DNA of 64,000 nt from the NCBI GenBank assembly GCA_947259505.1, contig CAMYLT010000007.1, positions 1-64,000 of the forward strand, read 5' to 3'. The notes below the pieces were generated by a model that ran no database searches, was not told where the DNA came from, and worked only from the letters and a program-made list of their open reading frames with translations. Positions 3,278 through 64,000 of the stretch are shown in pieces. A program made the position numbers and the translations under genes. Source of the DNA: an uncultured Porticoccus sp. (GTDB lineage: Bacteria > Pseudomonadota > Gammaproteobacteria > Pseudomonadales > Porticoccaceae). Numbering within the stretch: position 1 is the stretch's first letter; the number at the start of each line of letters is the position of its first letter.

Positions 3278-4105
3278 CTAGCACTCCAGCCTGCTGTCTG
3301 TACTGCGCACAAACGCCAAGACGTCGCTCCGCTTTTCCCGCTGCATGCCGGGAATGTGCCGGTATAGATACTCCCCTGGCCCCAACACCAGACAACCATT
3401 TGGCTTTAAACAGCGCGCCAGCCTGGCCACCACGGCATCGCGCCGCTCTGGGCCGAAGTAACCCAATAGATGCTGACAAAAAATAACATCCATGCCCTGA
3501 GTTTCCCTCGGCCAACGGCGATCGACCAAGTTGTGATGAACAAAGTGAACGTAGCTACGCAAGGATGCCTCAACCTGCACCCGGCCTTCACCGAGTGATA
3601 GAAAGCCAGTATGTTCTGGGGGCATCAATCCGGCGAGGCGACTGGCCTTGTATGTTGCCGCACGCGCCTGGTTCAGAGCAGCCTCGGAGATATCGGTAGC
3701 CAGTACCTGGAACTGCTCATTAGGCCACACCTGCTGAGCCGTCATGGCCATTGAATAAGCTTCTTCGCCACTGGCACAGCCTGCGCTCCAGAGTCGCAGC
3801 GTCCTTTTTTCCCCCGTTGATGCCTTGTCTGCAAGGTAACAACGCAGGTAATCAAAGGAGGCGCGATGCCGAAAGAAGGTTGTTTCCTTAATTAACAACT
3901 GGTCGAGCAATTCTCGCCACCAGCCAGCCAGCCCTTTACGACTGGCCAACAGGGCAGGATGCTTGTCGTTGATCTTGAGGTCATGCAAATGCGCGTTCAG
4001 GATACGTCGAGCATGTCCTTCCCATGCGGGAGTGACCCGCACGCCAATTCTTGACTCCAGCAGGGCGGCCCATCGGCTGAATGCGCTATCGCTTAACGGC
4101 TCCAT
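3278..4105 (-). CDS. pilK: PilK, CheR-type chemoreceptor methyltransferase
   Basis: 275-residue protein of the CheR family, expected to methylate glutamates of the receptor PilJ using S-adenosylmethionine. The N-terminal all-alpha CheR segment (about residues 1-85) precedes the SAM-binding domain. That domain carries LWSAGCASGEEAYSMA at about residues 104-119 and the acidic strand end ATDIS. Its position between pilJ and chpA, 20 bp after pilJ, is the standard Chp cluster order. The stop codon touches the chpA start, so the two are probably translationally coupled. Confidence 0.93.
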   Translation of the reverse strand: MEPLSDSAFSRWAALLESRIGVRVTPAWEGHARRILNAHLHDLKINDKHPALLASRKGLAGWWRELLDQLLIKETTFFRHRASFDYLRCYLADKASTGEKRTLRLWSAGCASGEEAYSMAMTAQQVWPNEQFQVLATDISEAALNQARAATYKASRLAGLMPPEHTGFLSLGEGRVQVEASLRSYVHFVHHNLVDRRWPRETQGMDVIFCQHLLGYFGPERRDAVVARLARCLKPNGCLVLGPGEYLYRHIPGMQREKRSDVLAFVRSTDSRLEC

Positions 4106-61435: not shown

Positions 61436-62071
61436 ATGTCAGACGTGATTTCCTTCCGCAAGGCGCAATTTCTCATCAGCGCACCGACCCTCACTCAGTG
61501 TCCAGAGGACAGCGGCTGTGAGGTGGCCTTTGCCGGACGCTCAAACGCCGGCAAGTCCAGCGCCATCAATGCGTTAACCGACAATGCCAAACTTGCTCGC
61601 ACCAGTAAAACACCGGGGCGGACGCAGCTGCTCAATTTTTTCTCCCTCTCTGAACAGTGCCGTTTGGTAGATTTACCCGGTTATGGCTTCGCCAAGGTGG
61701 CCAAATCCCTTAAAAAAGAATGGGATAAACACCTTGCCGAATATCTACAACAACGAAAATCGCTAAAAGGGCTAGTCCTGTTGATGGATATTCGCCACCC
61801 CCTACAGGAATATGATTGGCAAATGATTCGCTGGGCATATCAGTCAGAGATGCCTGTTCACCTGCTGCTGACCAAAGCGGATAAATTCAATCATGGCCCA
61901 GCCAAGGCGATACTGTTGAAAGTACAGCGGGAACTGAGCATGGCCGGTTTCAGTGACAACATCAGTCTCCAGACCTTTTCTTCCCTTAAAAAAACGGGCT
62001 TGGACGAACTGGAAGCCGTGCTTCGCAACTGGCTATCCGCCCAACAGGAATCTCACAACCCGTTGATTTGA
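61436..62071 (+). CDS. engB: Ribosome biogenesis GTPase EngB/YihA
   Basis: 211 residues. G1 [16 protein letters not shown]2 region [15 protein letters not shown]3 DLPGYGFA, G4 LLTKADK and G5 region at the C-terminus. Needed for 50S subunit assembly. Divergent from cytochrome c4 and convergent with the small-RNA units and polA, as in the engB-spf-polA region of enterics. Confidence 0.96.
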
Positions 62072-62084
62072 AAATGTTTCTACC

Positions 62085-62189
62085 AAAAAAAGCCCTGATC
62101 AATATCGATCAGGGCTTGCTTTGCTGTTGCTTGGGGATTAATCAAGCTTTGCATCTAGTTTGGGGAGAAAGCAGCAATGTTGCTTGCGT
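62085..62189 (-). ncRNA. Small RNA candidate, copy A (Spot 42/ErsA locus)
   Basis: Predicted transcript of about 105 nt on the minus strand, from near 62189 to the T7 run at 62091-62085. It ends in a perfect 11-bp hairpin (AAGCCCTGATC with GATCAGGGCTT, 62090-62117), an intrinsic terminator on this strand only. The body carries two unpaired C-rich motifs, TTTCTCCCCAAAC and TTAATCCCCAAGC, of the kind that pair with ribosome sites. Positions 62110-62198 repeat at 62300-62388 with 3 differences in 89. Same place and orientation relative to polA and engB as spf in enterics. No convincing reading frame. Confidence 0.75.
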
Positions 62190-62194
62190 GAAGA

Positions 62195-62221
62195 TTAGAG
62201 AAGGGATTCTCGAGATAGTTC
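62195..62221 (-). promoter_or_regulatory. Sigma-E/AlgU-like promoter of small RNA copy A
   Basis: Minus strand: GAACTA (62221-62216, with G before it), 16-nt spacer, TCTAA (62199-62195). This fits the extracytoplasmic-stress consensus GAACTT-N16-TCTRA. Confidence 0.65.
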
Positions 62222-62272
62222 CAAACACGTTAAAAATATTTCTTACTCACTTACACCACTCACGACGAACCC

Positions 62273-62379
62273 AAAAAAAAGCCCTGTATCAAATCGATTC
62301 AGGGCTTGCTTTGCTGTTGCTTGGGGATTAATCAAGCTTTGCATCTAGTTTGGGGAGAAAGCAGCAATGTTACTTGCGT
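62273..62379 (-). ncRNA. Small RNA candidate, copy B (Spot 42/ErsA locus)
   Basis: Predicted transcript of about 107 nt on the minus strand, from near 62379 to the T8 run at 62280-62273. Body nearly identical to copy A, with both C-rich motifs intact. The terminator stem (62279-62307) has one T-T mismatch and a different loop from copy A, so the hairpin has been kept while its sequence drifted. It is the copy nearer polA. Separate promoter and terminator mean both copies could be expressed. Confidence 0.75.
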
Positions 62380-62384
62380 GATAA

Positions 62385-62411
62385 TTAGGCATGGTCAAAA
62401 GCGCAAAGTTC
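62385..62411 (-). promoter_or_regulatory. Sigma-E/AlgU-like promoter of small RNA copy B
   Basis: Minus strand: GAACTT (62411-62406), 16-nt spacer, CCTAA (62389-62385). The -35 is an exact match. Its two elements sit at the same 190-bp offset from copy A as the transcribed parts, although the spacer sequences differ completely. Confidence 0.65.
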
Positions 62412-62494
62412 CCATCTGGATAAAAATTTTTATATTATTTTACCTGTATATCCACCCTGGTTCAGACCAGACCCTTATATGTAGCCCACTGCGG

Positions 62495-64000
62495 TTAATG
62501 GGCCTCATCCCAGTTCTCCCCCATACCCACGTCCACAATCAACGGCACATCCAAAGTCACCGCACCTGACATTCTATCCCTCAGCCCTGCCCGAACGATC
62601 TCCAGCTCCTCTTCAGGAACTTCCAACACCAATTCATCGTGAACCTGCATGATCATTTTGGCCCTGAGTGGCGCCTCCTGCAGCCAACTATCCACAGCGA
62701 TCATGGCTAGCTTGATAATATCAGCGGCGGTACCTTGCATGGGGGCATTGATTGCAGTGCGCTCTGCCGCCTGCCGACGCATACCATTACTGGATTTAAT
62801 CTCCGGGAGATAGAGCCGCCGCCCCATCAGGGTTTCCACGTAGCCTTTTTCAGCCGCAGTCTGGCGTATGCTGTCCATATAACCCTGAACCCCGGGATAA
62901 CGTGCAAAATAAAGATCGATATATTCCTGCGCCTGGTTGCGGCCTATTTTAAGCTGTCGAGCGAGCCCGAATGCGGACATGCCGTAGATCAATCCGAAAT
63001 TAATGGCCTTGGCACTGCGCCTCTGTTCGGTGGTAACCTCGTCGAGACCAACGCCGAATACTTCTGATGCCGTCGCCCTGTGAACATCGAGTCCTCCCGC
63101 AAACGCTTCCTTCAACCCCTTATCCCCCGACAGGTGGGCCATTATCCTTAGCTCTATCTGCGAATAATCAGCGGCCACAATTTTGCAGCCGGGAGCGGCC
63201 ACAAAAGCCTGGCGGATGCGTCGTCCCTCGGCTGTGCGCACCGGGATATTCTGGAGGTTCGGATCAGATGAGGACAGGCGCCCTGTTGCCGTCACAGCCT
63301 GGTGATAGGATGTGTGAATTCTACCCGTCGCGGCATTGACCAGCCCCGGCAGTTTGTCGGTATACGTGGCCTTCAATTTTGAAAGGCTACGGTGTTCCAA
63401 CAGCAACTTGGGCAGCGGGTAATCCAGCGCCAGCTCCTGCAACACTTCTTCCTTAGTTGAAGCGGCACCCTTGGCCGTCTTTTTCTGCACCGGGATCTGG
63501 AGTTTTTCAAACAGGATATAACCGAGCTGCTTGGGCGATGCCAAATTGAACTCTTCACCAGCCAGCTCATAGGCTTGCTGTTCCAGTTTCTTCAGGCGAG
63601 TGCCCAATTCACCACTTTGGGTACGCAGTAGTTCAGCACTCACTCTGACACCATTGCGCTCAATACGAGACAGTATTGGCACAAGTGGTATCTCTATATG
63701 TTCGAAGACATGCTTCAAGCCGTCCACCGATGCGAGCTTTGGCCATAATGTCTGGTGCAGCCTCAACGTTATGTCTGCGTCTTCCGCCGCATAAGGCCCT
63801 GCCTGTTCGAGGGCAATCTGGTTAAAGGTCAGCTGGGATGCGCCCTTACCTGCTATATCCTGAAAATGAATGGTTTTTTCACCCAAATATTTCAGTGCCA
63901 GGCTGTCCATGTCATGGCGCGATGCGATTGAATCGAGCACGTAGGATTCCAGCATGGTATCAAAGCGAATACCCCTTAATGTAATGCCATGGTTGGCCAG
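62495..64000 (-). CDS. polA: DNA polymerase I, C-terminal part (partial)
   Basis: 501 residues visible; the gene continues past the right edge, so the 5'-3' exonuclease domain and part of the 3'-5' exonuclease domain are missing. The first visible residues ([20 protein letters not shown]) lie in the 3'-5' exonuclease domain. Polymerase motif A is [16 protein letters not shown], the O-helix region [16 protein letters not shown], and motif [18 protein letters not shown]. An in-frame ATG at 63955 is internal and not the start. The stop lies in a short GCCCA/TGGGC hairpin. Confidence 0.96.

Follow-up and report, generated by a model that had tools for sequence, protein, structure and literature searches.

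The polA locus carries C-rich small RNAs (sRNAs) in several groups, and a passage of PMC3771888 raises, as an interesting question, whether other bacteria have them too. The window analyzed here, a stretch of 64,000 nucleotides from an uncultured Porticoccus sp., has two units on the minus strand in the gap between polA and engB (Table 1). Each unit consists of a promoter-like motif followed by a predicted RNA of about 106 nt that runs to a hairpin and 7–8 T. An ungapped comparison of positions 62197–62109 with 62387–62299 gives 86 identical bases of 89 at an offset of exactly 190, with no match between the two units at offsets of 189 or 191. The earlier observation of twin units 190 bp apart, each ending in a hairpin plus T7–T8, is therefore confirmed, with T8 at unit 1 and T7 at unit 2. 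The upstream neighbor, on the same strand as the units, is a gene that we take to be polA, in line with the earlier note. The convergent neighbor engB has relatives in 56 of 56 genomes of the order searched; among named genomes the closest EngB proteins are those of Porticoccus MAGs (74–77% identity), followed by Porticoccaceae such as SAR92 clade H231, HTCC2207, and MOLA455 (64–66%). A sequence search of the window's own genome found no further copy of the units anywhere, and besides the units themselves it returned one 40-base match, which is the complementary strand of the same hairpin.

Table 1. Features of the polA–engB gap and its flanks, in window coordinates
Feature	Position	Strand	Basis
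engB, convergent neighbor	61436..62071	+	211-aa open reading frame; name from the earlier note
sRNA 2, start inferred	62085..62190	-	fold z -4.23; 121.8 bits with model R1, by construction (unit sits in the model)
Terminator 2, perfect 12-pair stem + T7	62085..62117	-	fold; simple terminator scan
Second UCCCC of sRNA 2, predicted unpaired (0.80)	62133..62137	-	fold
UCUCCCC of sRNA 2, predicted unpaired (0.93)	62162..62168	-	fold
Promoter 2, GAACTA-N16-TCTAA, sigma-E type	62195..62221	-	GAACTA 62221–62216, TCTAA 62199–62195, N16 between; boxes same as rpoE promoter
A/T run before promoter 2	62230..62241	-	such a run in 26/44 family units
sRNA 1, start inferred from -10 position	62273..62380	-	fold z -3.10; 110.7 bits with model R1, by construction (unit sits in the model)
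Terminator 1, hairpin with internal mismatch + T8	62273..62307	-	fold; helix covariation
Second UCCCC of sRNA 1, predicted unpaired (0.80)	62323..62327	-	fold; less conserved
UCUCCCC of sRNA 1, predicted unpaired (0.85)	62352..62358	-	fold; conservation
Promoter 1, GAACTT-N16-CCTAA, sigma-E type	62385..62411	-	GAACTT 62411–62406, CCTAA 62389–62385, N16 between; motif, compare rpoE promoter
A/T run, UP-element-like, before promoter 1	62420..62442	-	such a run in 26/44 family units
polA 3' part, runs off window	62495..64000	-	open reading frame; PolA C-terminus aligned in relatives

We read the units as two sibling genes for trans-acting, sigma-E-activated sRNAs that were multiplied in Porticoccus and whose bodies were gene-converted, an account that we regard as probable. 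Transcription of each RNA would be initiated by RpoE (the AlgU homologue) in response to envelope stress, from a GAACT(T/A)-N16-(T/C)CTAA promoter of its own, and would end at the terminator of the same unit. Through the unpaired UCUCCCC, and also the second UCCCC, the RNAs would then pair with G-rich ribosome-binding sites and block translation, with Hfq probably assisting the pairing between sRNA and mRNA. The pair would descend from a single sRNA of a polA–engB family that was later multiplied in Porticoccus; in this genome gene conversion would have equalized the bodies and left the promoters different, and unlike promoters combined with like bodies may provide more RNA and two separately tunable inputs.

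The extent of the family was followed with a covariance model built from 24 units of Porticoccus and G023, which matches 54 of the 112 Porticoccaceae genomes scanned, some of them weakly. Two or three matches are present in each of 14 of the 17 Porticoccus genomes, compared with one match in each of 40 genomes from other genera. Among the latter, G023 contributed a unit to the model and the other 39 hold single relatives with no unit in it; several of the single matches are weak (E 0.001–0.01), and their position in the gap was checked for a part of them. On these counts the multiplication of the units is genus-wide in Porticoccus, and the duplication proposed in the earlier note extends beyond the window. 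The model has no match in three genus genomes (G001, G011, and G014), and a single weak unit is visible in the G001 gap (16.4 bits, E 0.54). When the gaps themselves are read, most Porticoccus genomes have two units and two have triplets (L008 of G007 and L015 of G016), compared with a single unit in L012 (G023), L025, L026, and the majority of the other named Porticoccaceae; no unit was recognized by the motif pattern in the L046 gap. The third match in G004, 64 bases long, lies at the end of a contig and probably reflects the edge of the assembly. In unit 1 of L006 (G003) and unit 2 of L015 (G016) the middle of the RNA is lost, with promoter, first CCCC, and terminator kept, and these losses offer natural deletions for asking which stretch matters. 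L013/L039 (G015, UBA2511) has a stretched engB and a polA match broken into three segments in differing frames, both possibly the result of assembly errors.

The similarity of the two window units is mosaic. Their bodies differ at 1 of 72 aligned positions, whereas 13 full-length pairs, taken from 11 other genomes, differ at 12–25 of 69–71 positions and three pairs with truncated units at 5/44, 7/42, and 12/43, so the near-identity is peculiar to the window's genome and not a rule of the genus. The window's two promoters, in turn, differ at 14 of 29 positions. These near-identical bodies, set against the divergence of the pairs elsewhere, suggest, as the simplest account, that gene conversion acted on the bodies of two older units. 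The units could also have been duplicated anew in this lineage, which would fit bodies with a single difference and would agree with the finding that the unit-1 copies of the genus do not form one clade, a constraint rejected at p 0.0004 in a likelihood tree that comprises 25 units and excludes the near-duplicates L005, L011, and L013. A fresh duplication is hard to reconcile, however, with the unlike promoters and with the terminator of unit 1, which is nearest to that of L006 unit 1 (5/34 differences) and not to that of its own neighbor (10/33). In the same tree the window's unit 1 joins L006 unit 1 at 96/92, and a clade of both window units is weakly rejected (p 0.045); grouping of the window's unit 2 with L006 unit 2 is allowed (p 0.42). 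Repeated duplication in several clades is possible, and for the window itself we consider renewed duplication rather doubtful and favor conversion.

The location of the units invites comparison with ErsA of Pseudomonas. Partial texts of PMC8575079 place ersA in the polA–engB gap and describe it as Hfq dependent, and those of PMC7264166 and PMC5819304 place ErsA under AlgU/sigma-22 control. The window units likewise lie in this gap on polA's strand and, by motif alone, carry putative sigma-22/sigma-E promoters. The earlier note had called them an ErsA-like pair, and this description holds for locus, promoter class, C-rich stretches, and terminator; it fails for membership in the ErsA or Spot 42 families as defined by Rfam models. 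The pair could be pictured as ErsA itself, duplicated and diverged within the same family, as the shared gap, strand relative to polA, promoter class, and C-rich RNA would have it. The Rfam model of ErsA (RF01719, Pseudomon-1) has no window match at its gathering score and none up to E = 10 in 61900–62600, yet the same model finds the two ErsA loci scanned as positive controls at 136.7 bits (L288) and 134 bits (L294). Conversely, our models R1, which defines the Porticoccaceae polA–engB family, and R2 have no match up to E = 10 in eight ErsA loci. These loci were located by the probe sequence printed in the available part of PMC7565897, with one mismatch allowed, which occurs in 9 of 390 genomes of the order, and these nine are inferred to be Pseudomonas; eight of the nine sites lie in a polA–engB gap, and the ninth (L286) has neither polA nor engB in reach. 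A duplicated ErsA is therefore an improbable origin for the pair, although both RNAs might go back to an ancestor too remote for these models to reveal. The Spot 42 model (RF00021) gives 21.8 bits on the window against a gathering score of 80, so the covariance search that the earlier note had proposed brings neither known RNA to its threshold, and identity with ErsA or Spot 42 by sequence is rejected at the level of covariance models. The units are better placed in a putative sRNA family of their own, new and absent from the Rfam copy searched.

ErsA and the window RNAs nevertheless share the gap, a GAACT(T/A) promoter, and C-rich stretches, and all eight ErsA sites in polA–engB gaps are preceded by GAACT(T/A)-N-GTCAG. 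They differ in length (about 132 nt for ErsA, according to the accessible text of PMC7565897, compared with about 106 nt for each window unit) and in number, as each of the eight gaps read holds one unit with the probe sequence compared with two in the window. A shared address and promoter class with no detectable common body is what this comparison suggests. ErsA regulates targets such as algC, oprD, and amrZ in an Hfq-dependent manner, and the window family probably works in a similar way; it is by analogy with ErsA that the CCCC stretches would be expected to bind G-rich ribosome-binding sites. Spot 42 shares with the window sRNAs a gene adjoining polA; its promoter is CRP-repressed, as the title of a reference in PMC3771888 has it, in contrast to the sigma-E-type promoters of the window units. 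Where a Spot 42 gene would have a sigma-70 promoter under CRP control, the minus strand of 61900–62600 shows no sigma-70-like site. The sX13 RNA of Xanthomonas and the alpha-r7 sRNAs also lie beside polA, are C-rich, and are thought to pair with G-rich mRNA sites, and sX13, which works without Hfq, folds into three stems topped by C-rich loops (excerpts of PMC3771888). The UCUCCCC of the window RNAs lies in an open stretch of the predicted fold, unlike the sX13 loops, a distinction drawn from description; no sX13 entry is among the Rfam matches in 61900–62600, from a library in which the presence of an sX13 model is unconfirmed.

The earlier note had placed GAACTT/A-N16-(T/C)CTAA at the same offset before both units, and the boxes are indeed found there. 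The rpoE gene of the window's genome is preceded by GAACTA-N16-TCTA, equal to the unit 2 promoter in boxes and spacing, and because of this shared motif and spacing sigma-E control of both units is probably the best-supported reading. Of the 16 genus genomes that could be tested (one further locus being truncated), nine have the motif no more than 200 bases from rpoE and seven lack it, namely five of the G008 clade, G001, and G014; at -10, ACAAA is found in five unit-2 copies from the G008 clade. Across 35 non-identical intergenic sequences of the family, four of them from loci without polA, GAACT[TA]-N16-[TC]CTAA occurs 21 times, whereas 200 mononucleotide shuffles average 0.025 occurrences and reach 2 at most. 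Throughout the order, a looser motif was sought in 20 gaps; of 29 loci, 9 lacked a polA end near enough. Six of the 20 gaps have this motif on the polA strand, compared with a mean of 0.43 and at most 4 in shuffles, and two have it on the opposite strand, which suggests that sigma-E promoters may occur in the polA–engB gap across the whole order. Bases 11–20 before GAACT are 83–93% A/T across 44 units, and an A/T run just upstream of -35 is present in 26 of 44 compared with 7.1% in the control. UP elements sit at this distance upstream of -35. The earlier claim that the spacers are unrelated is thus only partly right, as both promoters are preceded by such a run. The window's genome encodes Hfq and one RpoE above the curated cut-off, and rpoE is followed by genes that resemble, as read by eye, rseA/mucA and rseB/mucB. 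A sigma-E regulon defined by the strict pattern was dropped, the sole further site in the genome lying inside a reading frame.

The units also lie on polA's strand downstream of its stop, an arrangement that would suit 3' ends of the polA mRNA, with the hairpins as polA terminators, the sRNAs cut from the 3' UTR, and the motifs incidental. Each unit is preceded, however, by a promoter-like site that has the same boxes as at rpoE and is far more frequent in the family's gaps than expected by chance, and this makes an origin from the polA transcript very unlikely. That the two near-identical copies with hairpins are a non-transcribed element of the REP kind is scarcely credible, as position and promoter are kept through the family and the repeat occurs in this genome at the polA–engB locus only, by which a scattered repeat, named in the earlier note as a finding that would refute its reading, is rejected as well.

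The predicted folds are consistent with structured RNAs. The fold energy of sRNA 2 is matched by none of 200 dinucleotide shuffles (z -4.23) and that of sRNA 1 by one of 200 (z -3.10). A simple terminator scan of the minus strand lists the unit 2 hairpin only, the unit 1 stem having an internal mismatch. Across the 24 units of alignment A1, 97.7% of cells in the terminator helix are paired and three of its base pairs show changes in both partners, which bears out the earlier statement that the stems drifted while remaining paired and shows covariation across the genus. A long-range helix between 5' CAAGC and GCUUG pairs in 97.4% of cells in the same alignment; one of its pairs is swapped in five rows, all from a single clade, which amounts in effect to one event; as a control, sliding the helix partners reduces pairing to 14–51%. 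By comparison, the alternative hairpin of GCUUG with 3' CAAGC, which places the second UCCCC in its loop, is disfavored (90% of cells, two pairs failing in 5 and 6 of 24 rows), and the two pairings may be alternatives to one another. In a third helix, formed by UGCUUU and AAAGCA, pairing is retained in 84% of cells. When the whole family is aligned, support is limited to the terminator and to a short GCA:UGC stem close to the 5' end. CTCCCC is kept in 24 of 24 rows of A1, up to shifts, and the second UCCCC is less conserved. Both C-rich stretches are predicted to be unpaired in both sRNAs, in agreement with the two seed regions of the earlier note.

The target search proposed for the CCCC motifs found no conserved target. 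In the window's own genome GGGGAGAA occurs at 66 sites compared with 47 for the reversed pattern, and among 63 distinct sites examined 18 lie near a possible start, most of them inside longer frames. GGGGAGA-N3-11-ATG occurs at 35, 18, 30, and 32 sites in G000, G006, G008, and G010, compared with 14, 22, 21, and 18 for the controls. The reading of the GGGGAGA sites excluded G010, the sRNAs' own complementary strands, one polA-end site, and two sites already examined; 36 predicted products have 40 or more residues, and not one of them matches a product from another genome at E 1e-5, and no such site before ATG is common to orthologues in the three genus genomes. In L269–L273, of the G008 clade, a Porin_O_P gene with the ribosome-binding site TGGGGAGAA is the strongest individual case and a candidate target for that clade only. 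Its family assignment stands at 22 bits with a cut-off of 20.9, and the first 230 residues alone match no Pfam family. Pairing of the porin's TGGGGAGAA and start-codon region with the genomes' own sRNAs is better than in 197 or more of 200 shuffles for all 10 pairs from five G008-clade genomes, in a test biased by the choice of the porin for its GGGGAGA, by shuffles that keep letter pairs only partly, and by the close relationship of the five genomes; among the other eight genomes tested, the pairing does not hold in the window's own and is not clear in the remaining seven. The logic of the sigma-E response is to cut synthesis of outer-membrane proteins, and the porin pairing in the G008 clade fits it.

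Tandem sibling sRNAs are well known, as noted in the available text of PMC4211561, and, judged by sequence, the window's genome would carry at least two highly related sRNA genes, as siblings do. PrrF1/PrrF2, OmrA/OmrB, and AbcR1/AbcR2 are similarly related sRNA genes side by side (same excerpt of PMC4211561); these lie at other loci under other regulators, whereas both window siblings have a sigma-E-type promoter. Porticoccus further differs from the known siblings in holding two or three copies, two of them with the RNA middle lost (L006 unit 1 and L015 unit 2). The family thus provides one answer to the question raised in the cited passage of PMC3771888. With it come a defined locus and a covariance model for RNAs that the Rfam copy searched does not recognize, and the matching genomes include SAR92-type marine bacteria. 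The natural series of one, two, and three copies, middle-lost copies, and bodies alike or unlike serves the question of why bacteria keep sibling sRNAs, which PMC4211561 leaves open in the portion available. The finding is of interest for sRNA evolution and ordinary in kind. Among the titles and abstract beginnings listed from the open-license literature no description of these Porticoccaceae polA–engB RNAs was found, and what is listed there for SAR92 sRNAs deals, by title, with another subject. More speculatively, the polA–engB gap might be a recurrent birthplace and amplifier in which lineages independently stack sigma-E sRNAs, conversion resets the bodies, and promoters diverge; we hold this view only tentatively, and if true it would give one RNA several differently tuned stress inputs.

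Besides Porticoccus, several other lineages are candidates for such stacking. The gap of Gammaproteobacteria BRH_c0 contains a different tandem repeat of 76 nt (L040:3161–3236 and 3372–3447; 86% identity, spacing 211), apparently an independent tandem expansion, and this repeat adjoins a weak relative of the window family (26.4 bits). In the gaps L018, L226, L228, and L230, two dissimilar promoter-to-terminator units each were recognized by eye.
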